From Thermoleophilaceae bacterium (lineage in GTDB: Bacteria; Actinomycetota; Thermoleophilia; Solirubrobacterales; Thermoleophilaceae): DNA of 64,000 bases. Within the stretch, counting starts at the first letter, position 1, and every line of letters begins with the position of its first letter. This document shows positions 7,491 to 24,695 of the stretch, in pieces. Both the position numbers and the translations under genes were made by a program. A model generated the notes under the pieces. That model had not been told where the DNA came from and ran no database searches. It saw nothing but the letters and a program-made list of their open reading frames with translations. The stretch spans positions 249,925 to 313,924 of the forward strand of contig JBBDYQ010000025.1 of NCBI GenBank assembly GCA_040901445.1, read 5' to 3'.

Positions 7491-8000
7491 ATGGAGCTCG
7501 AGGACGCCATCCGCACCCGCCGCACCCACAAGGCCTACTCGGCCGAGCCCGTGGACCGTGCCACCCTGGACGAGCTGTTCGAGCTCGCGCGCTGGGCGCC
7601 CAACCACAACCTCACCAACCCCTGGCGCTTCCGCGTGGTCGGAGCGGGCTCGCTCGAGGTGCTCAAGCAGGCGGCCGGCCCCGAGGCGGCGGCCAAGCTC
7701 GACCGGGCGCCGACGCTCGTCGTGGTGAGCGTGGCGCAGACCGGCGAGCCGGTGCAGGACGAGGAGGACCACGCGGCCGCCGCCGTGGCGGCCTACATCG
7801 TGCTGCTCGCCGCCCATGGCCGCGGGCTGGCCGGCTACTGGCGCACGCCCGCGGTGCTGCGCGAGCCGGAGGGGCGCGCGGCGGTGGGCGTGCCGGACGG
7901 CGAGTGCGTGCTCGGCCTCATCCACCTCGGCCGCGCCCGCCAGGAGAAGCAGCCTCCCGAGCGGCTGCCGACCGGCGACTTCGTAACGTACCTCCCGTGA
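7491..8000 (+). CDS. Nitroreductase-family FMN oxidoreductase
   Basis: FMN-dependent NAD(P)H oxidoreductase of the nitroreductase fold, 169 residues. The N-terminus LEDAIRTRRTHKAYS gives the FMN phosphate-binding Arg pair. ELARWAPNHNLTNPWRF is the conserved substrate/FMN region, and GYWRTPAV plus VLGLIHLG near the end complete the fold. A TAGCTT -10-like hexamer at 7476-7481 lies 9 bases before the ATG. The stop overlaps the glpD start. The natural substrate is unknown. Confidence 0.87.
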   Translation: MELEDAIRTRRTHKAYSAEPVDRATLDELFELARWAPNHNLTNPWRFRVVGAGSLEVLKQAAGPEAAAKLDRAPTLVVVSVAQTGEPVQDEEDHAAAAVAAYIVLLAAHGRGLAGYWRTPAVLREPEGRAAVGVPDGECVLGLIHLGRARQEKQPPERLPTGDFVTYLP

Positions 8001-9634
8001 TCGCGCGCGACGACGCCCTGGCCGCCTTCGACGCCGAGCCGTTCGACCTCGTCGTCGTCGGGGGAGGGATCACCGGCGCGGGCGTGGCGCTGGACGCGGC
8101 ATCGCGCGGCTACGCCGTGGCGCTCGTCGAGCGCGACGACTACGCCGCCGGCACCTCCAGCCGCTCGTCGAAGCTCGTGCACGGCGGCCTGCGCTACCTG
8201 CAGAACTTCGATCTCGGGCTGGTGCGCGAGGCGCTGCTGGAGCGCTCCCTGCTCGTGAACCTGGCGCCGCATCTCGTCAAGCCGCTGCCGCTGCTGGTCG
8301 CGGCCTTCGAGGGCAAGCGGCCCGATCGGCTCACCGGGGTGGGGCTGAACATGTACGACGTGATGGCGGTGGACCGCATCCGCCGCCGCGATGACGAGGA
8401 CTGGTCACCCGACCGCCACCGCGTGATCCCCGAGGACGAGGTGCTCGAGCTGCTCCCCGCGCTCGCCCCGCGCGAGCCCAGCTCCGCCTATCTCTTCTAC
8501 GACTGCCAGACCGACGACGTGCGCCTGGTGCTCACCGTGCTGGGCGAGGCCGAGCGCTACGGGGCGGTGTGCGCCAACCGCGTCGAGGTCACCGGGCTGC
8601 TCGACGAGGGCGGCGGCGTGCGAGCGGTCGACCGCGTCTCCGGGCGCGAGCTGGACATCCGTGCCGACAACGTGGTCAACGCCACCGGCGTCTGGGCCGA
8701 CCGCATCCGGCCCGAGGAGCTGTACGCGGAGGAGGAGGTGCCGCGCATCCGGCCAAGCCGCGGCACCCACATCACGCTCGCGCGCGAGGACCTCGACGTG
8801 CGCGCCGGGGCGATCGTGCCGGCCGCGGGCGGCCGCACGATCTTCGTGCTGCCGTGGCTCGGGCGCACTCTGGTGGGCACGACCGACAACGACTACGAGG
8901 GCGAGCTCGACCACATCAAGCCCGACGACGGCGACGTGGACTACCTGCTGGACGCGGTCAACGAGTACTTCGGCGGCTCGCTGGGGCCCGCGGATCTCAC
9001 CGGCGCCTACGCCGGGGTGCGCCCGCTCATCTCCACGGGCGACCCCAAGAAGTCGGTGGACATCTCGCGCAAGGCCGAGCTCTACGAGACCAGCTCGGGC
9101 ATGGTCACGATCACCGGCGGCAAGCTCACGACCTGGCGCCGGATGGCCAAGCTGGCGGTGGACAGGATCGTGGAGCGCGAGGCGCGCGACGCTCCCTGCC
9201 GGACGCACGAGATCCCACTGGGCATGCCCGCCCGCGAAGAGGACCTCGCAGGGCTGGACGCCGACACGGGCGCGCTGCTCGGCGCCCGCTACGGTCACGC
9301 CGCGGCGCAGGTGCGCGGCGTGGCGCGCGAGCGCCCGGAGCTCGGCGAGCTCATCAGCCCCGACCTGCCCGACCTGCTGGCGGAGGCCGTCCAGGCCGTG
9401 CGCCAGGAGCAGGCCGCCACCGTGGCGGACGTCCTGCTGCGACGCACGCGCCTGGGCCTGCTGGACGCGCGCCGGCTGTGCAAGCCCGGGGCCGACGGCC
9501 CGGCGCGGGTGGCGGCCGCGATGGGCGCCGAGCTGGGCTGGGATGACACGCGCATGGCGGCCGAGCTCGCCGCCTGGCGCGAGACGGCCGCGGCCGAGGG
9601 CATCGACGCGAGCGCGCGCGAGGTGGCCGCATGA
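7997..9634 (+). CDS. glpD: Glycerol-3-phosphate dehydrogenase (FAD-dependent)
   Basis: Oxidises sn-glycerol-3-phosphate to dihydroxyacetone phosphate and passes electrons to the membrane quinone pool. The 545-residue protein starts at a GTG overlapping the nitroreductase stop. The FAD-binding motif is LVVVGGGITGAGVALDAASRGY (within residues 15-36), followed by GTSSRSSKLVHGGLRYLQ, a GlpD signature. The substrate-domain sequences RGTHITLAR and ITGGKLTTWRRMA are intact, and the C-terminal domain is present. The next gene starts inside the stop codon (ATGA), giving a glpD, DHPS-like and phosphoesterase operon. Confidence 0.93.
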   Translation: MIARDDALAAFDAEPFDLVVVGGGITGAGVALDAASRGYAVALVERDDYAAGTSSRSSKLVHGGLRYLQNFDLGLVREALLERSLLVNLAPHLVKPLPLLVAAFEGKRPDRLTGVGLNMYDVMAVDRIRRRDDEDWSPDRHRVIPEDEVLELLPALAPREPSSAYLFYDCQTDDVRLVLTVLGEAERYGAVCANRVEVTGLLDEGGGVRAVDRVSGRELDIRADNVVNATGVWADRIRPEELYAEEEVPRIRPSRGTHITLAREDLDVRAGAIVPAAGGRTIFVLPWLGRTLVGTTDNDYEGELDHIKPDDGDVDYLLDAVNEYFGGSLGPADLTGAYAGVRPLISTGDPKKSVDISRKAELYETSSGMVTITGGKLTTWRRMAKLAVDRIVEREARDAPCRTHEIPLGMPAREEDLAGLDADTGALLGARYGHAAAQVRGVARERPELGELISPDLPDLLAEAVQAVRQEQAATVADVLLRRTRLGLLDARRLCKPGADGPARVAAAMGAELGWDDTRMAAELAAWRETAAAEGIDASAREVAA

Positions 9635-10473
9635 GGCTGGCGCTGCGGCTTCGCGACAAGCTGCTCGACATCGATCCGGGACGCCCGCTGGTCATGGGCA
9701 TCGAGAACGCGTCGCCCGACTCCTTCTCGGGCAACGGCCACGCGGCCGGTGCCGACATCGTGGACGTGGGCGGCGAGTCCGGCCGCACCGATGTCGCGCC
9801 GGTGCCCGCCCAGGAGGAGATCGAACGAGTGGTGCCCGTGGTGGAGCGCCTCGTGGCGCAGGGCGCGCTCGTCTCGGTGGACACCTGGAAGGTCGAGGTG
9901 GCCCGCGCCGTGCTGGACGCCGGCGCCGTCATGATCAACGACGTCAGCGGCCTGCGCGATCCCGAGATCGCGTCCGCGTGCGCGCAGACGGGCGCGGCGC
10001 TCGTGCTCATGCACACTCGCGGGGAGCCGAAGATGAAGGAGTTCCCCGGCTACGGGGACGTGGTGGGCGACGTGGTGGCCTTCCTGCGCGAGCGGATGAT
10101 CCTCGCGGCGGAACACGGGGTAGGGGAGGAGCAGATCGTGCTCGACCCCGGACCGGACTTCGCCAAGACCCCCGCCGAGACCGTGGCCGTGCTGCGCCGC
10201 CTCGACGTCGTGGCGGCTCTCGGGCGGCCGGTGCTCCTGGCGGTCTCACGCAAGGACTTCGTCGGCCAGGTCACCGGGCGGATGCCGCGCCGGCGCCTCG
10301 CCGGCACGCTCGCGGCGATCGCCGACGGCGTGGACCGCGGCGCCGCCATCCTGCGCGTGCACGACGTGCCCGAGACACTCGACTACCTCGCCGTGCGCGG
10401 CGCGCTGCGAGGCGAGCGCGAGGTTCACCCCGGGCCGCTCGAAGAAGGGTTGCGCAGGGAGCCGGCCGCATGA
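9631..10473 (+). CDS. Dihydropteroate synthase-like protein, divergent
   Basis: Pterin-binding TIM-barrel enzyme of the dihydropteroate synthase family, 280 residues. Family motifs are recognisable but altered: MGIENASPDSFS replaces the usual N-V-T-P-D-S-F-S, DVGGESGRTDVAP replaces G-G-E-S-T-R-P-G, and DPGPDFAKT replaces D-P-G-I-G-F-G-K-T. SRKDFVG and the final RVHDV are kept. The changed second loop is where the family contacts pyrophosphate and p-aminobenzoate, so this may be a paralogue with a different substrate. It overlaps glpD and the phosphoesterase by 4 bases each. Confidence 0.78.
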   Translation: MRLALRLRDKLLDIDPGRPLVMGIENASPDSFSGNGHAAGADIVDVGGESGRTDVAPVPAQEEIERVVPVVERLVAQGALVSVDTWKVEVARAVLDAGAVMINDVSGLRDPEIASACAQTGAALVLMHTRGEPKMKEFPGYGDVVGDVVAFLRERMILAAEHGVGEEQIVLDPGPDFAKTPAETVAVLRRLDVVAALGRPVLLAVSRKDFVGQVTGRMPRRRLAGTLAAIADGVDRGAAILRVHDVPETLDYLAVRGALRGEREVHPGPLEEGLRREPAA

Positions 10474-11267
10474 GCGTCACCATCGCCCAGCTCTCCGACC
10501 TTCACTGCGGCTCACCGCACTTCGTCCCCACCCTGCTCGAGCGCGCGATCGTGGAGATCAACGAGCTGGCGCCGGACCTCGTGATCGTCTCCGGCGACCT
10601 GACCAACGAGGGCTTCCGTCAGGAGTTCCAGACCGCGCGCGACTATCTCGACCGCGTGGAGTGCGAGCACATGATCGTGATCCCCGGCAACCACGACGCC
10701 CGCAACGTGGGCTACGTGCATTTCGAGGACCTGTTCGGCGACCGCCGCGCGGCGACGACGGTCGAGGGCGTCTCGGTGGTGGCGGTGGACTCCACCGAGC
10801 CCGACCTCGACCACGGCACCATCGGCCGCGGACGCTACGGCTGGATCGAGGAGAGCTTCGACCCCGGCGCGTTCCTGCGCGTGTTCGTCCTCCACCATCA
10901 CCTGCTGCCCATCCCCGGTACGGGCCGCGAGCGCAACGTCGTGCACGATGCGGGCGACACGCTCGAGTGCCTCCAGCGCGCCGACGCCCACCTCGTCCTG
11001 TCCGGGCACAAGCACGTGCCGTATGCGTGGCGGCTGGAGAACCTCTTCGTCGTGAACGCCGGCACCGTCTCCACCACCCGCCTGCGCGGCCGCACCAAGC
11101 CCTGTTACAACGTGATCGAGGCGTCGCCGGAGCGGGTCTCGATCTTCCGCAAGTACCCGTTCCACGAGCGGGACGCGATCATCGCGTTCAGCCCGCAGAC
11201 CTACGAGTACGAGAAGGACCAGGCGCTGCTGGGCGAGGCGGCGCCGGGCCCGCGGGCACAGGGGTAG
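10470..11267 (+). CDS. Calcineurin-like metallophosphoesterase
   Basis: Two-metal phosphoesterase, 265 residues. All metal-ligand blocks are present: QLSDLHCGSP (about 7-16), VIVSGDLTNEG (38-48), IPGNHDARN (70-78), VLHHHLLP (about 147) and LSGHKHVPYAW (about 178). The arrangement resembles bacterial cyclic-nucleotide phosphodiesterases (CpdA/Icc-like), although these motifs alone do not fix the substrate. No signal peptide is seen, so it should be cytoplasmic. It is coupled to the dihydropteroate synthase-like gene by an ATGA overlap. Confidence 0.9.
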   Translation: MSVTIAQLSDLHCGSPHFVPTLLERAIVEINELAPDLVIVSGDLTNEGFRQEFQTARDYLDRVECEHMIVIPGNHDARNVGYVHFEDLFGDRRAATTVEGVSVVAVDSTEPDLDHGTIGRGRYGWIEESFDPGAFLRVFVLHHHLLPIPGTGRERNVVHDAGDTLECLQRADAHLVLSGHKHVPYAWRLENLFVVNAGTVSTTRLRGRTKPCYNVIEASPERVSIFRKYPFHERDAIIAFSPQTYEYEKDQALLGEAAPGPRAQG

Positions 11268-11315: not shown

Positions 11316-13103
11316 ATGCCCTCCGCGTCCGTCATCGTCCTCGCCTACGGCAACCGCGCCGTCACCGAGCGCTGCCTCGACTCGCTCGCCGCGGCACTCG
11401 GCGACGAGCTGGGAGGCGCCTACGAGCTCGTGCTGGTGGACAACGGCTCGCCGGACGACACCGCGGAGCTGTTCCGCGCCTGGGAGGACCGCGCCACGGT
11501 GCTCCTGCTGGACGAGAACCGCAACTTCGCCGGCGGCTGCAACGCGGGTGCGCGCGCCGCGGCCGGCGACGTGCTCGTCTTCCTCAACAACGACACCGAG
11601 GTGCCGGCGGGTGCGCTCGAGGCCGTCGTCGAGGCCGCGCGGCAGCCCGGCGTGGGCGTGGCCGGCACCCGGCTGCTCTACCCGGACGGGACCATCCAGC
11701 ACGCCGGCGTGGTGCACAAGGAGTGGCAGCCGGGCCGGGTGCTGCCGCTGCATCTCTTCCATCACGAGCCGGGCGACCTGCCTGGGGCGCGCGCCTCCTA
11801 CGACCTCGACGCGGTCACCGGGGCATGCCTGGCGATGCCCGCGCCGCTGTTCGAGGAGCTCGGCGGATTCGACGAGGCCTACGTAAACGGCCTCGAGGAC
11901 ATCGACCTCTGCCTGCGGGCAAGGACCGCGGGGCATCGGGTGGTCTACCGCGGGGACGTGCACCTCGTCCACCACGAGCGCCTGACGCGGGGGGCCAACC
12001 ACGACGAGAAGCCCAACGCCGCGATCTTCCACCGCCGCTGGAACCCCCTGCTCTCCGACGACAGCGACATCCTCGGGACGCTCTTCGGCCTGGGCCTCGG
12101 GCCGATCCCGCCCGACGCGGGCATGCTTCCGCAGCCGGGAGGCGCCCAGCTCGCGGTCCACGGGCGCCTGCGCTCACCGGCGCCGGAGGGGTTCGAGGCC
12201 CGGGCGCTCATCGGCGCCCTCGCGGAAGCGGGGCTCGACGTGGCGGCCCGGGACTGGTTCCCGGTCTGGGAGGCGCCCACCGACGGCGGCCCGCAGTGGC
12301 ACGCGCTCGCCGCCGCCGTCAAGCGCCCGCCTCATCCAGCCGCCGCGGCCATCCGCGTCGCCACCGGGAGCCTCTTGTCGCTGCCCGCCGGCAGTGCGGC
12401 GGTCGCGCGCATCGCGGCGGTGCCTCGCGGCGCGCTGGACGTGGCCGCGGTGTGGGCGGCTGCTCCCGCGCTCGTCGACGAGCTGGTGGAGGGCGGCTTC
12501 CCCCGCGAGCGGGCGCACTGGCTGCCGCCGGCGATCCCGCAGAGACCCCCGGGCCCGGGTGGGGAGGGCATCCTGGCGCTTTTCCCGGCCCACGACCTCG
12601 ACGCCGCCGCCCTGCTGCTCGAAGCGCTCTCGGGCCTCGGCGACCAGCGGATCCGGCTGCTTCCAAACGTCAAGGGCGCGCTGGTCACCGCCTTCGCCGC
12701 AGGCCGCCTGCCCGCCGCGGAGCTGCTGGATCCCACCTCGGACGAGCGCGCGCTGGGCGAGCTGGCGGGCTCGGCGGACGTGGTTTGCGGGTCCGACGGC
12801 GACGGCTTCGAACGGCGGCTGCTGCTCGCCGGCGCCGCGGGCGCCGCGGTAGTGGCGCCCGCGGGCGGCGCCGCCGCGGCGGTGCTCGGAGACGGCGTGG
12901 GGCCCACGGCCGGGGCCGGCGGGCTGCGGGCGGCGCTCGAGCGTGCACTGGCGGACGACACTTCCCGGGCCGCGCGCTCGGACCTGGTCGCGATGACCTG
13001 CGGGCACGCGGCTGTGGGAGCGAGGCTTCGCGAACTCGTGGAGCGCCTGGCCGCCGCGCGCCGGGCTCCCGCGCCGCTCGCCGGGGCATCCGCCCGCCTC
13101 TAG
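11316..13103 (+). CDS. Glycosyltransferase family 2 protein with a C-terminal GT-B-like domain
   Basis: Transfers a sugar from a nucleotide-sugar donor, probably in cell-surface glycan synthesis. Residues 1-255 are a GT2 domain: SVIVLAYGN start, LVLVDNGSPDDT, the DXD-type site FLNNDTEVP (about 90-98), and GGFDEAYVNGLEDIDLCLRA (acid residues of the acceptor site). Residues 280-595 form a second region that resembles a degraded GT4-like fold, with a late EG-like region replaced by ADVVCGSDGDGFERRLLLAGAAGAAVVAP. GGGGGAAGGG-type spacing before the ATG (11301-11315) supplies a ribosome site. The acceptor is unknown. Confidence 0.85.
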   Translation: MPSASVIVLAYGNRAVTERCLDSLAAALGDELGGAYELVLVDNGSPDDTAELFRAWEDRATVLLLDENRNFAGGCNAGARAAAGDVLVFLNNDTEVPAGALEAVVEAARQPGVGVAGTRLLYPDGTIQHAGVVHKEWQPGRVLPLHLFHHEPGDLPGARASYDLDAVTGACLAMPAPLFEELGGFDEAYVNGLEDIDLCLRARTAGHRVVYRGDVHLVHHERLTRGANHDEKPNAAIFHRRWNPLLSDDSDILGTLFGLGLGPIPPDAGMLPQPGGAQLAVHGRLRSPAPEGFEARALIGALAEAGLDVAARDWFPVWEAPTDGGPQWHALAAAVKRPPHPAAAAIRVATGSLLSLPAGSAAVARIAAVPRGALDVAAVWAAAPALVDELVEGGFPRERAHWLPPAIPQRPPGPGGEGILALFPAHDLDAAALLLEALSGLGDQRIRLLPNVKGALVTAFAAGRLPAAELLDPTSDERALGELAGSADVVCGSDGDGFERRLLLAGAAGAAVVAPAGGAAAAVLGDGVGPTAGAGGLRAALERALADDTSRAARSDLVAMTCGHAAVGARLRELVERLAAARRAPAPLAGASARL

Positions 13104-13130: not shown

Positions 13131-14354
13131 GTGCGTGCCATCGCCCTGATCGACGGAGAGCATCACCCGGCCGTGGTGCGGGCCGCGCTCGACGCGCTCG
13201 ATCCCGTGGGTGTGGTGTTCTGCGGAGGCGAGGAGAAGGTGCACGCTGAGGTCCTGGACGATGCGACGGCGCACTACGGCCGCGACGTGGCGCTGGGACC
13301 GCCGGCCGAGTCGCTGCGGCGGCTCGTCGCGGAGACCGGCGCGCGGCGGGTGGTGGACCTGGCGGACGAGCCCGTGCTGCCCCCCGCGGCCAAGCTGCGG
13401 CTGGCCGCGCTGGTCCTGCACCTCGGCCTGAGCTATGAGGGACCGGGGCTGCGGCTGTCACCCCCGCCGTCCGAGCGGATCGAGTTCGCGGGGCCGAAGC
13501 TCGCGGTGATCGGGACCGGCAAGCGCACCGGCAAGACCGCCGTAGCCGGGCACCTGGCTTCGCTTCTGCGCGATCGGCGGCCGGTGATCGTGTCCATGGG
13601 ACGGGGCGGGCCGGCGGCGCCCCAGGTTGCCGATGCGGGCACGGGCCTGGCGGAGCTGGAGCGCATCGCCGCCGAGGGTCGCCACGCGGCGAGCGACTAC
13701 CTCGAGGACGCGGTGCTCGCCGGCGTGCCCACGGTGGGCTGCAGGCGCGTTGGCGGCGGGCTGGCAGGTGAGCCACACGAGTCCAACGCGGCGGCCGGAG
13801 CGCGCCTCGCCGCCTCACTCGGCCCAGGCGTGATCGTGCTGGAGGGGTCTGGGTCGTGCATCCCGCCGGTGGAGGCGGACCGGACCGTGTGCGTCGTCGG
13901 CGATCGCGCGGATGCGCTCGACGGCCTCGGCGTGTACCGCCTCCTGCGGGCGGACCTGGTGCTGGTCCCCGATCCCGCGCTCGTCCCGGAGGTCGCCCTG
14001 GCGTGCCCAGGCGAGACGATGGCCTTCATGCTTCGCGCGGAGCCCGCGGGGCCGCTGCCGGAGGGCGCCCGCGTGGCGGTTTTCAGTACCAGCTCGGCCC
14101 CGGTCCACGGGCTCGAGCCCCTGGTGGTCTCCTCAGCGCTGGCACGCCGCTCGGAACTCGCTGCCGACCTCGATCGCGCGGCGGCCGAGCGCTGCGACGT
14201 CTACCTCACGGAGCTGAAGGCCGCGGCGATCGACACCGTGGCGGTGCGCGCCCGCGCCGAGGGTGCTCGGGTCGTCTTCGTCAGGAACCGGCCGGTGGGG
14301 CTCGACGCCGATCTCGACGCCGCGCTCGTCAGGCTCGCAGACTCGGCTGGCTGA
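13131..14354 (+). CDS. Cyclic 2,3-diphosphoglycerate synthetase homologue
   Basis: In methanogens this enzyme closes 2,3-diphosphoglycerate into cyclic 2,3-diphosphoglycerate using ATP; the product is a thermoprotectant and phosphate store. The 407-residue protein begins with AIALIDGEHHPAVVRAAL, as I recall for the archaeal family. It has a P-loop at LAVIGTGKRTGKTAVAGHLASLL (about 125-147, GTGKRTGKT) and a second conserved block VIVLEGSGSCIPPVEAD (about 234-250). The 2-phosphoglycerate kinase that makes its substrate lies 2.9 kb downstream on the same strand. Its 3' end overlaps the convergent methyltransferase gene by 26 bases. Activity in this organism is not proven. Confidence 0.82.
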   Translation: MRAIALIDGEHHPAVVRAALDALDPVGVVFCGGEEKVHAEVLDDATAHYGRDVALGPPAESLRRLVAETGARRVVDLADEPVLPPAAKLRLAALVLHLGLSYEGPGLRLSPPPSERIEFAGPKLAVIGTGKRTGKTAVAGHLASLLRDRRPVIVSMGRGGPAAPQVADAGTGLAELERIAAEGRHAASDYLEDAVLAGVPTVGCRRVGGGLAGEPHESNAAAGARLAASLGPGVIVLEGSGSCIPPVEADRTVCVVGDRADALDGLGVYRLLRADLVLVPDPALVPEVALACPGETMAFMLRAEPAGPLPEGARVAVFSTSSAPVHGLEPLVVSSALARRSELAADLDRAAAERCDVYLTELKAAAIDTVAVRARAEGARVVFVRNRPVGLDADLDAALVRLADSAG

Positions 14355-15492
14355 ACAGCTCGAGCGCGGACGCCTCGATCACGGTTGCCGTCGGCCCGGG
14401 ATGGGGCGAGTCCGTGACGATCGCCACGTCGACGTGGTCGGGCAGCTCCCGTCCGTCCAGCGCCGCCGCAGCGCAGGCCAGCGCGTCCTCGGCGCCGATC
14501 GACCCCGGCGGGGCGTGAAGCTGCAGCGAGGCGTTCCCCTCGTTAAGGTCGGCGAAGCCGCGGAGCACCTGGGAGAGTGCATCGGGTCGCCACTCCGGGC
14601 TGCACCAGAGGCTCTTCGACTCCGGCCGCACGTCCCACGCCCGCATCGTGTCCCGGGCCACGAGGTGCGCGCACCCGCCGCAGCGCAGGAGCGAGGGCCC
14701 GAGGCGCTCCAGCCGGCCGCCACAGGCCTGACAGCGGAGCGCGCGGAGCAGGGTGGGCTCGAGATCCGCCTGATCCACGTGCGGCCCGGCGGGCTCGCTG
14801 CGCTCGAGCAGGTACGCCTTGCGCCACGAGTCCCCGAAGCTCGCGGCCTCGAACAGCTCCACCCACTGGCGGGCGTTCGCGGTCGCTTCGAGCGTCGCGT
14901 GGGGTGTGACCTCCGGGATGAAGTCGGCCAGGCTGGCCATCGTGGAGAAGAGGCCGTTCGGCACCGGAAGGGGGCGCGAGCTGAAGCCCTCGCGCTCAGC
15001 GCAGCACTCTGCAATCTCGGCCGGTGTGGGAAGCCCGAACTCGTCGTGCTCGGAGAGCCATCCCGGAACCTCCTGCCCCGAGCGCACGAACACCGCTCTG
15101 ACGAGGTCGTCGATCGGGCCCATCTCGCTGGACGGGCACGCCACCACCACGCGGTTCGCGGACACTCGGGCCAGCTCGTCCACGAAGGCGGTCCGGTCGG
15201 CCGGCGGCACGTGCTCCAGGACGTCGAGTGAGATGACGGTGTCGAACGAGGCGTCGGCGAAGGGCAGCCGCCCGGGGCCGTTGCGCACCGCCAGCATCGA
15301 CGGTCCCGCGGGTAGCGGGAACTGCATGTCCATCCCGACGAAGGGGCTGCCGGGGTCGACGCACGCGAAGCCGTGGGGTCCCGATCCGGCGTCCAGCAGG
15401 CTGGCTGAGAGCTCGCGCTTGCGGCCGAGCACCACCGGAGTGACGAGCGCGTAGCGGCACAGCCAGTTCAGCATCTGCGTGGTGGCCGCCAT
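14329..15492 (-). CDS. SAM-dependent methyltransferase with Trm112-like zinc ribbon
   Basis: Class I methyltransferase, 387 residues from the ATG at 15492; a GTG at 15540 would add 16 residues but overlap the upstream gene by 44 bases. The SAM region reads SLLDAGSGPHGF, and VISLDVLEHVPP is the motif II region typical of small-molecule and glycan methyltransferases. Near residue 250 a CxxC-type zinc ribbon, LRCQACGGRLERL then LLRCGGCAHLVARD, resembles Trm112/YbaR modules. The gene follows the glycosyltransferase-methyltransferase fusion gene at 4 bases. A surface polysaccharide or lipid is the likely acceptor. Confidence 0.78.
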   Translation of the reverse strand: MAATTQMLNWLCRYALVTPVVLGRKRELSASLLDAGSGPHGFACVDPGSPFVGMDMQFPLPAGPSMLAVRNGPGRLPFADASFDTVISLDVLEHVPPADRTAFVDELARVSANRVVVACPSSEMGPIDDLVRAVFVRSGQEVPGWLSEHDEFGLPTPAEIAECCAEREGFSSRPLPVPNGLFSTMASLADFIPEVTPHATLEATANARQWVELFEAASFGDSWRKAYLLERSEPAGPHVDQADLEPTLLRALRCQACGGRLERLGPSLLRCGGCAHLVARDTMRAWDVRPESKSLWCSPEWRPDALSQVLRGFADLNEGNASLQLHAPPGSIGAEDALACAAAALDGRELPDHVDVAIVTDSPHPGPTATVIEASALELFSQPSLRA

Positions 15493-15496
15493 TCGC

Positions 15497-17257
15497 TCAG
15501 GCTGCGCTTGCGGCGAGGTCCGCGCTTGCGCGGCGGTCACGATCGGCGTCGGGGTAGACGATCGCCAGGATCGTGTGCTCGAGGGTGTGGAGGTCGTTCG
15601 ACCGCGTCAGTCCCACGCTTCCGTGCTCGAACCCCCAGGCCTCCATCAGCGCGGCGAACTCGGAGATGTTCCACTCGCGCACGTGACAGAGGTGCTCCGG
15701 CGGGCCGAGGTCGTCAGCGCCGCGCGTGCGGTCGCGCTCGGGGGTGGAGAGGATGATCGCCTCGACCGATTCGAGGATCCCCCGCATGTTGTCGAGCAGC
15801 AGGTCCGGGCGCACGAGGTGCTCGATCACGTCGGCACACACCACCACCGATCCCGTCAGCTCCTCGGGTGAGAGCGGCAGCGGATCCTCGCTGTCGAAGT
15901 CGTGCTCGCGCCAGCTCCCGTAGGGGAACTTCTGGCGGCACAGGTCGAGGTTCGGGCCGAAGTCGATCCCCACGATCTCGAAGCGCGGATGCAGAGCGGC
16001 GAGCTTGTCGCCGCTGCCGGGCCCGAGGTCGATGATCCGCCGCGCGCCCAGCCGCTCGGCCACGCGTGCCGCCTCCGGATAGACGTCGGGCTGCCACACC
16101 ACGTTGTCGCGCTCCTCGATGAGGTCGACGAAGTACTCGGGGGCGTCCCGGTGGACGTAGCCCGGCTTGATGCAGTACGAGCCCACGTCGTCGCGCCCGG
16201 GCAGCTCCACCCTGCGCGCGAGGGGGACGGCGAGCCCGCGCCGGGAATGGTCGAGCCCGTGCCGAGCCCCCACGTCCCATGGGTCGGCGGCGAGGGCGGC
16301 GAGGAAGCAGCCGGCCGCCTCCGCGAACCGGGCGTCCGCGAGCGCCGTGCGTCCGGCGCCGATCTGGCCGGCCGCCTCGGCCTTGTCCTCGTTCGAGACG
16401 TCGATCACGTGCTCGAGCGGCACGCCCTCGGTCCGGGCCACGTGCATGTAGAGGCCGACGAAGTGGTCGAACGCCGCCACGAGGTCATCGACGGCGAGGT
16501 CGGCGGCGCGCAGATTGGCCAGTATCCAGCGCCGGAAGGGGAGCTCGCGCTGGAGGATCCCGATGACCTCGTTGCCACTCTTGCCGTGGTTCATGTTGCC
16601 GCCGTGGACGCGGTACCGGGAGAGCGCGGCGGTGAGGAAGTCCACCTCTGCGACCTCGGCCACGCGCGCCGCGACGAACCAGTCCTGGTAGGGCGAGAAC
16701 GACGGGATGGGGCAGAAGCGGTCCCGCAGCGACGCGCGCACCATGAGGGCCGGGGCGGAGATGAAGTTCTCCCGCAGGAGCCGCGGCAGCACACGTCCGC
16801 GCGCCGGAGTCACCCGGTTCTGGGCGAAGAACGACGGATGGACCGTGCGGTCCTCCTCGTCCACGATCTCCATGTCCCCGTAGACGAGGCCGACCTCCGG
16901 GCGCCGGGTGAACGCCTCGGCCAGGAGGCGGGTGCGGTCCTCGGGCCACGTGTCGTCCGCGTCGAGGAAGGTGATCAGCTCGCCGCGCGCCTCTTCCATC
17001 CCGCGGGTCGTGGCCGCGGCCAGGCCGCCGTTGTCCTGGCGTATGTAGCGGATCCTCCCGTCGGACTGCGCCGCGTAACGCTGCGCGATCTCGGGCGTCG
17101 CGTCGGTGGAGCCGTCGTCCACGACCACCAGCTCGAGACGGTCGGCCGGGTAGTCCTGGCGCAGCGCACTCTCGAGCGCACGACCGAGGTAGCGCTCGTA
17201 GTTGTAGGCGGCCACGACGCCGCTGACACGCGGGGACGGTGCCATCGCCCCGTTCAT
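15497..17257 (-). CDS. Bifunctional glycosyltransferase (GT2) and methyltransferase
   Basis: A 586-residue fusion. Residues 1-230 are a GT2 domain with SGVVAAYNYERYLGRALES, VVVDDGSTDAT and the DXD-type FLDADDTW (about 95-102). A helical, TPR-like middle (about 280-330, ALADARFAEAAGCFLAALAADPW) follows. Residues 380-560 are a class I methyltransferase with IIDLGPGSGDKLA, IVGIDFGPN and VVCADVIEHL. Such fusions occur in polysaccharide clusters, where the chain is extended and methylated by one protein. It is the first gene of a minus-strand pair divergent from the 2-phosphoglycerate kinase gene. Confidence 0.85.
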   Translation of the reverse strand: MNGAMAPSPRVSGVVAAYNYERYLGRALESALRQDYPADRLELVVVDDGSTDATPEIAQRYAAQSDGRIRYIRQDNGGLAAATTRGMEEARGELITFLDADDTWPEDRTRLLAEAFTRRPEVGLVYGDMEIVDEEDRTVHPSFFAQNRVTPARGRVLPRLLRENFISAPALMVRASLRDRFCPIPSFSPYQDWFVAARVAEVAEVDFLTAALSRYRVHGGNMNHGKSGNEVIGILQRELPFRRWILANLRAADLAVDDLVAAFDHFVGLYMHVARTEGVPLEHVIDVSNEDKAEAAGQIGAGRTALADARFAEAAGCFLAALAADPWDVGARHGLDHSRRGLAVPLARRVELPGRDDVGSYCIKPGYVHRDAPEYFVDLIEERDNVVWQPDVYPEAARVAERLGARRIIDLGPGSGDKLAALHPRFEIVGIDFGPNLDLCRQKFPYGSWREHDFDSEDPLPLSPEELTGSVVVCADVIEHLVRPDLLLDNMRGILESVEAIILSTPERDRTRGADDLGPPEHLCHVREWNISEFAALMEAWGFEHGSVGLTRSNDLHTLEHTILAIVYPDADRDRRASADLAASAA

Positions 17258-17273
17258 CGACGGCCACCCGGCG

Positions 17274-17291
17274 AGCTTGAGTCGTCAAGCT
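17274..17291 (+). promoter_or_regulatory. Perfect inverted repeat in the divergent intergenic region
   Basis: AGCTTGA, spacer GTCG, TCAAGCT: 7-bp perfect arms centred in the 40-base gap between the glycosyltransferase gene (leftward) and the 2-phosphoglycerate kinase gene (rightward). It lies 6 bases before the kinase ATG. It may be an operator serving both promoters, or a hairpin at the start of either mRNA. Confidence 0.5.
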
Positions 17292-17297
17292 ACGCGG

Positions 17298-18188
17298 ATG
17301 CCTGAGACGATCGTCGTCCGCCGCGACTACGGCCTGCCCTACTCCAAGGGGGTCATGGCGCAGGAGCTGTCGGCCACGGGGCTGGGCCCGGGGCGGGCCT
17401 TCGAGCTCGCCCGGATGATCGAGCGCCGGCTCGATGCGCGCGGCCAGCCGCAGATCACGGTGAAGGAGCTGCATGCCCTCGCGGAGGATGTCCTGCGGGA
17501 AGAGGAGGGCGACGACGCCCTGCGCCGCTTCCGCGACTGGCGCAGGCTCGGCGGCCTCGACCGCCCGCTCGTCGTGCTGGTGGCGGGCACCACCGGGGTG
17601 GGAAAGTCCACCATCGCCACAATGCTCGCCCACCGGCTGGGCATCACCCAGGTCATCGCCACGGACGTGATCCGACAGGTGCTGCGGGCATTCTTCTCCT
17701 ATGACTTCCTCCCCGCCGTGCACTACTCCGCCTACGAGGCCGGCAAGGCGGTCCTCAAGGGTGGTGGCGATCCCGACCTCGTGGGCTACCTCGAGCAGGC
17801 GCGCAGCGTCTCCACCGGCGTCGCGGCCATCGTGGACCGGGCCTGCAAGGAGAACACGCCGCTCGTGGTCGAGGGCGTCCACCTCGTCCCGGGCACGCTC
17901 GACCCCCGCCTGCGCGAGCGCGGGGTCGTGGTCGAGGCCCTCGTCACGGTGGAGGACGAGGACATGCACCGCGGCCACTTCACGCTGCGCGGCGGCGAGC
18001 GCCCCAAGGACCGCTACCTCGCCCATTTCCATCAGATCCGCAAGCTGCAGGAGCACCTCGCGGGTAAGGCCGCCGACGCCGGGGTCGCAGTCATAGACAA
18101 CGTCCACGTCGACGAGGCGCTGCAGGAGGTCATGGACCTGGTCCTGGTCGCAGCCGGCCGCGCCTCCGACCGAGAGGAGAACCGATGA
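17298..18188 (+). CDS. 2-phosphoglycerate kinase homologue
   Basis: Phosphorylates 2-phosphoglycerate to 2,3-diphosphoglycerate, the first step of cyclic 2,3-diphosphoglycerate synthesis in methanogens. The 296-residue protein has an N-terminal ATP-cone-like domain (residues 1-90, VVRRDYGLPYSKGVMAQEL). The kinase domain follows, with Walker A VAGTTGVGKSTIATMLA (about 97-113) and ATDVIRQVLRAFF, then VVEGVHLVPG (about 192). This layout matches the archaeal enzyme. The ATG at 17298 was preferred to a TTG 7 codons upstream. The fructose-6-phosphate aldolase-like gene overlaps its stop by 4 bases. Confidence 0.87.
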   Translation: MPETIVVRRDYGLPYSKGVMAQELSATGLGPGRAFELARMIERRLDARGQPQITVKELHALAEDVLREEEGDDALRRFRDWRRLGGLDRPLVVLVAGTTGVGKSTIATMLAHRLGITQVIATDVIRQVLRAFFSYDFLPAVHYSAYEAGKAVLKGGGDPDLVGYLEQARSVSTGVAAIVDRACKENTPLVVEGVHLVPGTLDPRLRERGVVVEALVTVEDEDMHRGHFTLRGGERPKDRYLAHFHQIRKLQEHLAGKAADAGVAVIDNVHVDEALQEVMDLVLVAAGRASDREENR

Positions 18189-18877
18189 AGCTGTTCATCG
18201 ACACCGGATCCGTTGCGGAGGTCGAGGAGATCGCCGCCTGGGGCGTGCTCTCCGGCGCCACCACCAATCCCTCGCTGCTGGCGAAGGAGGAGGGGGACCC
18301 CGGCGACATCATCCGCCGCATCTGCGAGCTCGTGGGCGGCCCGACGTCCGCCGAGGTCGTGGCCACCGACGCGCGCGAGATGGTGGCCGAGGGCCGCGCC
18401 CTCGCGGGCCTGCACGAGCACGTGGTGGTGAAGGTGCCGTTCTCGCCCGCCGGCCTCGAGGCCACCCGCGCGCTGTCGGACGACGGCATCCGCGTGAACA
18501 TGACGCTCGTGTTCTCGGCGGCGCAGGCGGTGCTCACCGCCGAGGCCGGCGCCACCTACGTCTCATGCTTCATGGGCCGGGTGGACGACATCGCGGTGGA
18601 CGCGGGCGCCGTGCTCGCCGAGATCGTCGAGGCGCTGCGGCCGGGCGGCACCCAGGCGCAGGTGCTCGCGGCCTCGCTGCGCCACCCGATGCACGCCGTC
18701 ACGGCCGCGAGGCTCGGCTGCGAGGTGGCCACCGTCCCGGCCAAGGTGCTGCGACAGATGCTCGTGCACCCGCTCACCACGGCGGGCATCGAGCGCTTCG
18801 CCGCCGACTGGCAGACGCGGCCGGAGCTCGCGGAGTGGCTGCACGGGCTCGTGCAGGGCGAGCCCGTGGCTCGGTAG
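18185..18877 (+). CDS. fsa: Fructose-6-phosphate aldolase/transaldolase-like protein
   Basis: Short transaldolase-family enzyme that cleaves or forms sugar phosphates through a lysine Schiff base, 230 residues. Conserved segments are MKLFIDTGSVAEVEEIAAWG, SGATTNPSLLAKE, the Schiff-base block HVVVKVPFSPAGL (Lys about 83), and VSCFMGRVDDIAVDAG. The last normally reads Y-V-S-P-F-V-G-R; here Cys replaces Pro. Length and order match the FSA/TalC branch. It is coupled to the 2-phosphoglycerate kinase, which suggests a shared triose-phosphate/glycerate context. A TAGGGT hexamer at its 3' end may belong to the promoter of the next gene. Confidence 0.85.
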   Translation: MKLFIDTGSVAEVEEIAAWGVLSGATTNPSLLAKEEGDPGDIIRRICELVGGPTSAEVVATDAREMVAEGRALAGLHEHVVVKVPFSPAGLEATRALSDDGIRVNMTLVFSAAQAVLTAEAGATYVSCFMGRVDDIAVDAGAVLAEIVEALRPGGTQAQVLAASLRHPMHAVTAARLGCEVATVPAKVLRQMLVHPLTTAGIERFAADWQTRPELAEWLHGLVQGEPVAR

Positions 18878-18917: not shown

Positions 18918-20183
18918 GTGTCCGTCCTAGCCCGCCACGAACTCGACCAGAGTCCCCTCGCCGACCTCCACGCCATCGCCGCCGAGCTCGGCATCGAGGG
19001 CTTCCGCGGCCTGCGCAAGCAGCAGCTCGTCGAAGCGGTCATCGAAGCACAGGGCGGCGAGCCCGAGACCCCCACCGCCGGTCTCGGCTCGCCGGAGGAG
19101 CCGGCGCCGTCCGCCGAGGAGGCCGAGACCACGGAGGAGGAGCTCGCCGAGGCCGAGGAGACCGCGGCCGCCGAGTACGACGTGGACGAGGTGGAGGCCG
19201 TCGCGGCCGACGAGGGCGAGGATGAGGAGGAGGAGGACGAGCGGCCCCGGCGCCGGCGCGAGCCGCGCGGCAGGGGTCGCGGCCGCGACCGCGATCGCGA
19301 CCGCGATCGCGATCGTGGCCGCGACGACGATCACGACCGCGAGGACGATCCCGACGGCGACCGCGGCGCCGAGGAGGTGCGCTCGGGGGTGCTCGACGTG
19401 CTCCCGAACGGCAGCGGCTTCATGCGTGTCGAGCCGTTCGTGCACTCGCGTGAGGACGTGTACGTCTCGCCCGCGCAGATCCGCCGCTGCGAGCTGCGCG
19501 CCGGCGACGAGCTGGCGGGCCCGGTGCGCCCGCCGCGGCGCTCGGAGCGCTACCCGTCGCTGGTGCGCGTCGACACGGTCAACAGCTCTCCCGCCGAGCC
19601 GCCGGAGGAGCGCCCGCGCTTCGAGGACCTCACGCCGGTGTTCGCCTCGCGGCGGCTGCCCGGCCCGGACCGCGTGTCCGGTGCCCCGTTCGGGCGCGGC
19701 TCGCGCGTGGCAGTCGGCGGCGCGCCGGGGGCGGGGGCCACCACCCTGCTGCGCGAGCTGGTGTCCGCGCTGGCCGGCGAGGGCGACCTCGAGCTCACCG
19801 TGATGCTCGCGGGCGTCCGTCCCGAGGAGGTCACCGAGTGGCGGCGCGGGACCGCCACCACGGTCGCGGGCGGCGGCTTCGACCGCCCCGCGGAGGAGCT
19901 CGCTCAGGTCGCCGGCATGGCGGTCGAGCGGGCCAAGCGCGTCGTCGAGCGCGGCCGCGACGCCGCCATCGTCATCGACTCCCTCGACGCGCTCCCGCCC
20001 GGCGTGGCCCGCAAGGTGTTCGGCGCGGCCCGGGCCAGCGAGGAGGCCGGCACGCTCACCATCATCGCCTCCACCGGTACCGCCGGGGAGCTGCAGCGGC
20101 TGGCCACCACGAGGATCGTGCTCGAGGACGGCGGCTCGCTCGCGGCAGCGTCAGGCACCATCCAGGGCGAGAAGCTGGCCTGA
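18918..20183 (+). CDS. Rho-like protein lacking ATPase catalytic residues
   Basis: Related to transcription termination factor Rho but probably not an active helicase; 421 residues. Present: Rho N-terminal helical domain (about 12-45), an acidic then Arg/Asp-repeat insertion (60-150), and an intact-looking RNA-binding fold (155-222: GVLDVLPNGSGFMR, DVYVSPAQIRRCELRAGDELAG, RYPSLVRVDTVN). The ATPase part (240-421) is degraded. The P-loop reads APGAGATT instead of APPKAGKT, so both lysines are gone, and the catalytic-glutamate motif reads LAGVRPEEVTEW instead of LIDERPEEVTDM. The Q-loop and R-loop segments are deleted, while FGAARASEEAGTLTIIAS remains. AAGGAGAG (18903-18910) gives a good ribosome site before the GTG. 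A functional rho presumably exists elsewhere. Confidence 0.85.
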   Translation: MSVLARHELDQSPLADLHAIAAELGIEGFRGLRKQQLVEAVIEAQGGEPETPTAGLGSPEEPAPSAEEAETTEEELAEAEETAAAEYDVDEVEAVAADEGEDEEEEDERPRRRREPRGRGRGRDRDRDRDRDRGRDDDHDREDDPDGDRGAEEVRSGVLDVLPNGSGFMRVEPFVHSREDVYVSPAQIRRCELRAGDELAGPVRPPRRSERYPSLVRVDTVNSSPAEPPEERPRFEDLTPVFASRRLPGPDRVSGAPFGRGSRVAVGGAPGAGATTLLRELVSALAGEGDLELTVMLAGVRPEEVTEWRRGTATTVAGGGFDRPAEELAQVAGMAVERAKRVVERGRDAAIVIDSLDALPPGVARKVFGAARASEEAGTLTIIASTGTAGELQRLATTRIVLEDGGSLAAASGTIQGEKLA

Positions 20184-23754: not shown

Positions 23755-23912
23755 CAGAAGTTGCAAGCCAGCCGAGTCTCCGCCGTCCAGAACGGCGGAG
23801 AGCGGGGGAACCAATCGGAGCGCCACCCGGCTCTCCAGGGGCGAATCGCCGTCTTCGTGCGGCGTAGCGCAGTTGTCAGCGCGAGCCCGTCAGCTCACCT
23901 CGTAGGCACGGA
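23755..23912 (+). promoter_or_regulatory. c-di-AMP riboswitch (ydaO/yuaA class)
   Basis: The leader of the Rpf-like gene carries conserved blocks of the ydaO-yuaA riboswitch: GGGGGAACCAAT (23804-23815), a GGGGCGAATC block (about 23841-23850) and the hallmark CCCGTCAGCTCACCTCGTAG with following GC (23887-23908). Flanking stems such as CCGCCGTC/GACGGCGG-type pairs around 23780-23798 fit the family architecture. Binding of c-di-AMP to this class normally turns expression off. The aptamer ends about 20 bases before the start codon, so control may act on termination or initiation. Outer boundaries are approximate. Confidence 0.9.
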
Positions 23913-23930
23913 CAACAAGGTGGTGGTCGT

Positions 23931-24695
23931 TTGGCCTCGTCAGGGGTGGATCTCGCCCGCGGCGAGATGTGGAAGAAGTCGCTCCAAGCCTCGCGCGCCC
24001 GGCGCGCGGCGGCGGCGATCGCGCGCCGGCGCAAGCTGCGCGTGCGCGGGGGCAGCGGCTCCCTGCTCGCCGTCGCCATGCTCACCGGCGTGCTCGGCGC
24101 GGGCATGGCGATCGGGCACGAGGTGTCCGAGCGCCCGGCCGCCCGGGCCGCCGGAGGCGTGCTGAAGGCCGGCAGCAGCGGGCCCTCGGTGTCAGCGCTC
24201 CAGCGCAAGCTGGGCGGGATCGCCGTCGACGGCGTCTTCGGGCGCCAGACCCGCTCGGCCGTCAGGCGCTTTCAGCGCCGCGAGGGCCTGGCCGTGGACG
24301 GCATAGCCGGGCCGCAGACGCTCGGCGCGCTCGGCCTCTCGGCCGGCTCCGGCGAGCGCTCGGGCTCGCGCGGCGGCGACGGCGGAGGCGACAGCGAGCG
24401 CGGCGGCGACCGCGAGCGTGGAGACGATCGCGAGCGTGGAGACGGTCGCGAGCGCTCAGGCTCCCGCGGCGGCTCGGGCGCGCTCGAGCGCATCGCCCAG
24501 TGCGAGTCCGGCGGCAACCCGCGCGCGGTCTCGCGTGACGGGCGCTACCGCGGCAAGTACCAGTTCGACCGCGCGACGTGGCGCTCCATGGGCGGCCGCG
24601 GCGATCCGGCACGGGCGCCGGAGGCGGAGCAGGACCGCCGGGCGCAGCAGCTGTATGACCAGCGCGGCAGCGCCCCCTGGGCGAACTGCGCGTGA
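23931..24695 (+). CDS. Secreted peptidoglycan-binding protein with Rpf/transglycosylase-like domain
   Basis: Probable wall-remodelling enzyme related to resuscitation-promoting factors; 254 residues. After a basic N-terminus, a hydrophobic segment (about 44-64, LLAVAMLTGVLGAGMAIG) serves as signal or anchor. A PG_binding_1 domain (about 78-135: LKAGSSGPSVSALQRKL, DGVFGRQTRSAVRRFQ) is followed by a Gly/Arg/Asp-Glu repeat linker. The C-terminal Rpf-like domain starts LERIAQCESGGNP with catalytic Glu, then YRGKYQFDRATWRSMGG and ends WANCA. The TTG start at 23931 has an AAGGTGG ribosome site 7 bases upstream; ATG 23967 is the alternative. It is controlled by the c-di-AMP riboswitch upstream. Confidence 0.88.
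   Translation: MASSGVDLARGEMWKKSLQASRARRAAAAIARRRKLRVRGGSGSLLAVAMLTGVLGAGMAIGHEVSERPAARAAGGVLKAGSSGPSVSALQRKLGGIAVDGVFGRQTRSAVRRFQRREGLAVDGIAGPQTLGALGLSAGSGERSGSRGGDGGGDSERGGDRERGDDRERGDGRERSGSRGGSGALERIAQCESGGNPRAVSRDGRYRGKYQFDRATWRSMGGRGDPARAPEAEQDRRAQQLYDQRGSAPWANCA

Follow-up and report, generated by a model that had tools for sequence, protein, structure and literature searches.

Methanogens form cyclic 2,3-diphosphoglycerate (cDPG) in two steps, in which 2-phosphoglycerate is phosphorylated with ATP to 2,3-diphosphoglycerate (2,3-DPG) by 2-phosphoglycerate kinase (2PGK) and the product is then closed to cDPG in an ATP-driven reaction catalyzed by cDPG synthetase (cDPGS) (PMC10690619; PMC1224877). 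Turnover of cDPG is fast and the compound has been taken as a store of carbon and phosphate (PMC1224877), while the 2023 structure paper describes it as exclusive to hyperthermophilic methanogens (PMC10690619). Genes for cDPGS outside the methanogens have been noted in Nitrosocaldales and were taken there as a sign of thermoadaptation or as belonging to a phosphate store; in contrast to the carrier studied here, these are archaeal thermophiles, and the relevant passages of the two reports refer to no occurrence in bacteria and to no hydrolase (PMC7819960, PMC7554672). Here, we describe homologues of both enzymes, together with a linked calcineurin-like metallophosphoesterase (MPE), in a 64,000-nucleotide stretch of contig JBBDYQ010000025.1 from a Thermoleophilaceae bacterium (Actinomycetota). 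This whole stretch is referred to as the window. It probably encodes a three-enzyme cDPG module consisting of 2PGK, cDPGS and MPE, with cDPG most likely serving as a phosphate and carbon store that is turned over. Homology, conserved catalytic residues, operon structure and co-occurrence form the basis of this proposal, and from these we infer the substrates, the direction of the three steps and the physiological role. Both synthetic enzymes as such are known, and bacterial cDPGS may already be annotated in databases. What appears to be new is the breadth within Actinomycetota, the operon and the linked phosphoesterase, none of which was described in the literature searched, a search short on subscription journals that also yielded no paper joining 2-phosphoglycerate kinase, cyclic diphosphoglycerate and Actinobacteria.

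A phmmer search of the PDB with the cDPGS homologue returned the structures 9sxb, 8oru and 8ork, all of which are named cyclic 2,3-diphosphoglycerate synthetase, with E values from 1e-57 to 4e-56 over residues 3-402 of 407; among the Pfam and NCBIfam models the protein had no match. The crystal paper on the M. fervidus enzyme names the residues that bind 2,3-DPG, Mg and phosphate (PMC10690619). The window protein has the same amino acid at nine of the published positions, E45, K46, K145, R146, K149, T150, D208, E404 and K406, which the alignment maps, in this order, to E35, K36, K131, R132, K135, T136, D189, E361 and K363. E45, K145, R146 and K406, which contact 2,3-DPG or shield charge in the solved enzyme, are thus all retained. 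An earlier reading made from the sequence alone (the sequence-only reading) had placed homologues of cDPGS and 2PGK on one strand; both open reading frames are present as given there, and the full-length match together with the nine identical active-site residues bears out the assignment of the first. Compared with M. fervidus cDPGS (PDB 8ork/8oru; Matussek 1998, De Rose 2023), the window protein is homologous over its full length at 35% identity and has the P-loop GTGKRxGKT as well as the 2,3-DPG and Mg ligands in common, but it is several tens of residues shorter and carries D and S in place of the ADP-contacting residues E305 and T353. Furthermore, it is bacterial, shares an operon-like unit with 2PGK and MPE and is known here from its sequence.

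For the second protein, the best NCBIfam models are two '2-phosphoglycerate kinase' equivalogs (PRK04220 and PRK12337), each scoring 266 bits, which lies under the curated cut-offs of 343 (PRK04220) and 603. Because of this score we refer to the protein as a homologue from the 2PGK family whose activity is probably that of 2PGK. It resembles M. fervidus 2PGK (PRK04220, COG2074) in combining an ATP-cone-like N-terminus with a P-loop kinase domain and in having these models at the top of the curated ones; it differs in its score, and in related loci the gene usually overlaps or abuts that for cDPGS. The Walker A motif GVGKST and family-invariant residues are kept in the alignment. The family assignment and the intact P-loop of the sequence-only reading therefore hold, while its intact 'SKG cone' corresponds to an ATP-cone match that is sub-threshold (21.2 versus 25.8 bits). 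The archaeal homologue encoded in the same gene arrangement at locus L065 exceeds the curated cut-off (367.8 versus 343). A fold search with the window protein retrieved generic P-loop kinases with query-normalised TM values below 0.5 and carries nothing on the substrate.

A scan of species-representative genomes yielded at least 435 relatives of cDPGS, from which 80 loci were kept; methanogen neighbourhoods are outside this sample. At 77 of the 80 loci, 2PGK is encoded directly downstream of cDPGS, with overlapping genes in 47 of these cases, and one of the three remaining loci ends at a contig edge. The third gene of the unit encodes MPE, which lies outside the region covered by the sequence-only reading and was not recognised there. 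Clustering of neighbouring genes detected it in 69 loci, a number that rose to 71 when loci missed by the gene caller were checked by tblastn. Two arrangements occur. In Actinomycetota, MPE is located upstream of cDPGS, at a distance of no more than 60 nt for 58 of 66 upstream genes, 44 of which overlap; in the window, an inserted glycosyltransferase gene parts the two. In Mcinerneyibacteriota, Thermoplasmata and Aminicenantes, MPE family members are found in tandem form downstream, behind a gene for a CBS-domain protein. This small protein is encoded between 2PGK and the tandem MPE (L089:10242-10670, L097:10233-10661 and L103:10267-10662), which suggests that the module may be under adenine-nucleotide control.

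Co-occurrence in related genomes, a survey proposed along with the sequence-only reading, was assessed in 250 Thermoleophilia genomes of at least 80% completeness. Strong matches to 2PGK are present in 110 of the 114 genomes with cDPGS and in none of the 136 without it, and the corresponding numbers for MPE are 109 and zero; these counts are not phylogenetically independent and the p value of ~1e-66 ignores shared ancestry, so that weight is placed on the pattern and not on the number. Fifteen of 101 related genomes have full matches to both cDPGS and 2PGK, the two sets being identical, and the genes are adjacent in the relatives. That the neighbouring pair argues for a working pathway, as had been claimed, appears as the best reading in view of near-perfect co-occurrence and adjacency in most carriers. 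The claim had concerned a single actinobacterium, which understated the matter, as about half of the genomes sampled across the phylum Actinomycetota contain cDPGS (153/296). A search of 28 genomes from the phylum of the archaeal locus L065 revealed no further cDPGS carrier.

MPE matches the Pfam family PF00149 with 66 bits (cut-off 21.5), and none of the curated equivalog models covers its family. The residues of the dimetal site (D10, H12, D43, N74, H142/143, H180 and H182) are conserved; 68 of 69 members have them together with HHHxxPxPxxGRER, a motif specific to the family, and an AGD motif is likewise part of the family signature. The folds nearest to an AlphaFold model of MPE (mean confidence, pLDDT, 88) are those of Rv0805 and GpdQ. 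MPE shares with these class III metallophosphoesterases the fold (Foldseek E ~1e-14) and the dimetal pattern D-x-H, GD, GNHD, H, GHxH, but it is only 17-19% identical to them, has conserved GRER and AGD motifs of its own and is tied to cDPGS. The chemistry of GpdQ/Rv0805-type enzymes suits the opening of a cyclic pyrophosphate, and on the grounds of its linkage we propose that MPE is a hydrolase of cDPG. To our knowledge, no gene has been assigned to the cDPG hydrolase of Methanothermobacter. This enzyme has been described from Methanothermobacter thermautotrophicus (Van Alebeek 1994, cited in PMC1224877) as membrane-bound and sensitive to inhibition by K+ and Pi, and the regulated breakdown of cDPG it performs is the reaction proposed for MPE. 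A more distant MPE paralogue (E ~1e-80) is present as an extra copy in genomes of family f9 and as the sole copy in some genomes of the class survey that lack cDPGS (e.g. G003, G017, G150 and G165).

Table 1. Genes of the proposed cDPG locus and its surroundings in the window
Feature	Position	Strand	Characteristics
Glycerol-3-phosphate dehydrogenase (glpD), first gene of syntenic block in the window's family	7997..9634	+	PRK12266 302 bits, cut-off 360; syntenic in 7 relatives
Dihydropteroate synthase (folP)	9631..10473	+	TIGR01496 239 bits, over cut-off; syntenic in 6 relatives
Calcineurin-like metallophosphoesterase (MPE), proposed cDPG hydrolase	10470..11267	+	Pfam Metallophos 66 bits; start inside end of folP-like gene (ATGA overlap)
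GT2 glycosyltransferase separating MPE from cDPGS, lineage-specific insertion	11316..13103	+	Pfam Glycos_transf_2
cDPGS homologue	13131..14354	+	GTG start, 407 aa; PDB cDPGS matches, active-site residues, tree
Methyltransferase-domain protein, insertion	14329..15540	-	Pfam Methyltransf_11
GT2 glycosyltransferase-methyltransferase fusion, insertion	15497..17257	-	Pfam Glycos_transf_2 and Methyltransf_23
2PGK homologue	17298..18188	+	ATG start, 296 aa; ATP-cone-like N-terminus and P-loop kinase domain; PRK04220/PRK12337 266 bits; model pLDDT 94
TalC/fructose-6-phosphate aldolase-type transaldolase	18185..18877	+	TAL_FSA; TIGR00875 241.7 bits, cut-off 245.95; 4-nt overlap with 2PGK
Short Rho-like protein, conserved operon neighbour	18918..20183	+	TIGR00767 203 bits over first 266 of 415 positions

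In the proposed cycle, 2PGK would convert 2-phosphoglycerate and ATP to 2,3-DPG, cDPGS would spend a second ATP on closing the two phosphates of 2,3-DPG to the cyclic pyrophosphate, and MPE would reopen the P-O-P ring, returning carbon and phosphate to gluconeogenesis. Apart from the shared ancestry behind the co-occurrence counts and the distribution of PPK1 considered below, several observations weigh against it. The genus g13 (genome G012; L025 and L030) and two Acidimicrobiia loci contain cDPGS-2PGK without MPE at the locus, weaker MPE paralogues exist in six genomes that lack cDPGS, and the Methanothermobacter hydrolase is membrane-bound, whereas MPE looks soluble and bears no membrane mark (no transmembrane analysis was run). 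An alternative is that cDPG is made by the two synthetic enzymes while MPE is a mere regulatory or housekeeping neighbour acting elsewhere, e.g. on 2,3-DPG or on a cyclic nucleotide controlling the operon. Of its closest solved relatives, Rv0805 is a cyclic-nucleotide phosphodiesterase and GpdQ a glycerophosphodiesterase; moreover, a CBS-domain gene adjoins MPE in three loci, a hint of regulation, and some carriers do without MPE. Yet MPE is linked no less tightly than 2PGK, in two different arrangements, and GRER/AGD is an invariant motif peculiar to the family, such that we regard this possibility as unlikely. Clearly less probable still is a recruitment of the proteins to another phosphorylated hydroxy-acid of a related kind, in which case no cDPG would be made. 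The score of 2PGK below the equivalog cut-off would agree with this, as would the naming of a mevalonate-3-phosphate 5-kinase within the same kinase family (NCBIfam) and the two loci with cDPGS but without detectable 2PGK (L063 and L095, in genomes G106 and G105). Against it stand the four retained 2,3-DPG-site residues of cDPGS and a gene for iPGM that adjoins cDPGS in L095 and points towards phosphoglycerate chemistry. Finally, the sequence-only reading saw a possible glycan-related role in opposite-strand glycosyltransferase genes between the pair. One of these genes encodes a fusion of a GT2 glycosyltransferase with a methyltransferase and the other a methyltransferase. A glycan pathway served by cDPGS and 2PGK together with the adjacent glycosyltransferases would be suggested by physical proximity, and this in the window only; none of the three inserted genes has a homologue at any of the 80 related loci and syntenic relatives possess the operon without them. 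Glycan function is thus not part of the conserved system; the idea was rejected and we give it almost no credence.

The three-enzyme cDPG module leaves the question of what cDPG is made for. A class II fructose-1,6-bisphosphatase (glpX) is encoded at 33 of the 80 loci and a TalC-type transaldolase in the same place at 19, a PHO4/Pit transporter and a PhoU-like DUF47 protein adjoin the module in about seven, and phosphoglycerate mutases neighbour it in a few, although those of Acidimicrobiia may be homoserine kinases instead because hom/thrC adjoin. The genes conserved next to the module are those of gluconeogenesis or of the handling of phosphate. No full reverse gyrase exceeded the cut-off in any of the 250 class genomes, all matches being confined to model positions 704-1166, and the carriers include lineages from soil, groundwater and peat or palsa, judging from record titles. 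For these reasons we consider it most likely, with moderate confidence, that cDPG in Actinomycetota is a turned-over phosphate and carbon (energy) store linked to gluconeogenesis and not chiefly a thermoprotectant. The role as thermoprotectant, which the sequence-only reading had named for methanogens, is unlikely as a general one on account of the missing reverse gyrase and the habitats of the carriers. A function of cDPG as a compatible solute or thermoprotectant, as in hyperthermophilic methanogens, would fit the likeness of the enzymes to those of M. fervidus, the geothermal origin of some carriers by title (Geothermincola) and an estimate of growth temperature from IVYWREL composition of about 50 °C for the window, a figure that is unreliable at 75% G+C; besides the points just named, an operon that includes a candidate hydrolase and a Pi transporter suits turnover better than a static solute, and we think this explanation improbable. 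A 16S rRNA gene was sought as a temperature proxy and not found in the window genome. Methanobrevibacter smithii is a mesophile from the gut. The presence of cDPG is on record for this archaeon (PMC1224877). PPK1 is rarer in Thermoleophilia that contain cDPGS (55/114) than in those that do not (122/136). Since two families, f8 and f9, carry most of this contrast, the anticorrelation is kept as a hint; PPK1 and cDPGS occur together in the window genome.

In a tree of 83 cDPGS sequences (midpoint root, several weak deep forks), the window protein groups, with good support, in a clade of Thermoleophilaceae type. Deep and diverse sequences from Actinomycetota are spread over most of the tree, and those from archaea are placed among a few deep actinobacterial (Geothermincola-like) and other bacterial lineages. 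With the reservation that the root and the weak forks impose, a recent transfer from archaea into the window genome was therefore not supported, while the direction of older transfers is not fixed by the shape of the tree. It is possible, and we put this forward tentatively, that a complete cDPG cycle with a dedicated hydrolase is a common and old part of actinomycetotal metabolism, that it provides non-thermophiles with a regulated phosphate and carbon reserve partly replacing polyphosphate, and that MPE represents the first gene for cDPG breakdown. If the bacterial operons work, cDPG would be far more widespread, protection from heat would probably not be its main role and a gene for its degradation would become testable. 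Mesophilic enzymes would also aid biotechnological production of cDPG.

The closest relative with an undisturbed gene order, L028, features a glpD-folP-MPE-cDPGS-2PGK-talC-rho arrangement. The window exhibits the same order with the addition of the GT2 gene in the gap between MPE and cDPGS and of the opposite-strand genes for the methyltransferase and the GT2-methyltransferase fusion in that between cDPGS and 2PGK. Judging from this comparison, the ancestral operon is split in the window genome by inserted glycosyltransferase and methyltransferase genes, and the transcription of 2PGK is probably separate from that of cDPGS. A Rho-family gene is located downstream at about 36 of the 80 loci. 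The short Rho-like protein from the window has GAPGAGATT as its Walker A motif, which contains no lysine, and a degenerate P-loop of this kind is conserved in six relatives (L026, L027, L028, L031, L033 and L034); the conserved short Rho thus appears to be ATPase-dead. A full-length Rho is encoded at the equivalent place in the Coriobacteriia locus L066. The iPGM of the Bipolaricaulota locus L095 (L095:2583-4142), where 2PGK is lacking, has its C-terminal half preceding its N-terminal half in one open reading frame. Further downstream in the window, a c-di-AMP riboswitch (65.9 bits) is present at 23760-23924, directly upstream of a gene for a peptidoglycan-binding, Rpf-like protein (23946-24695).

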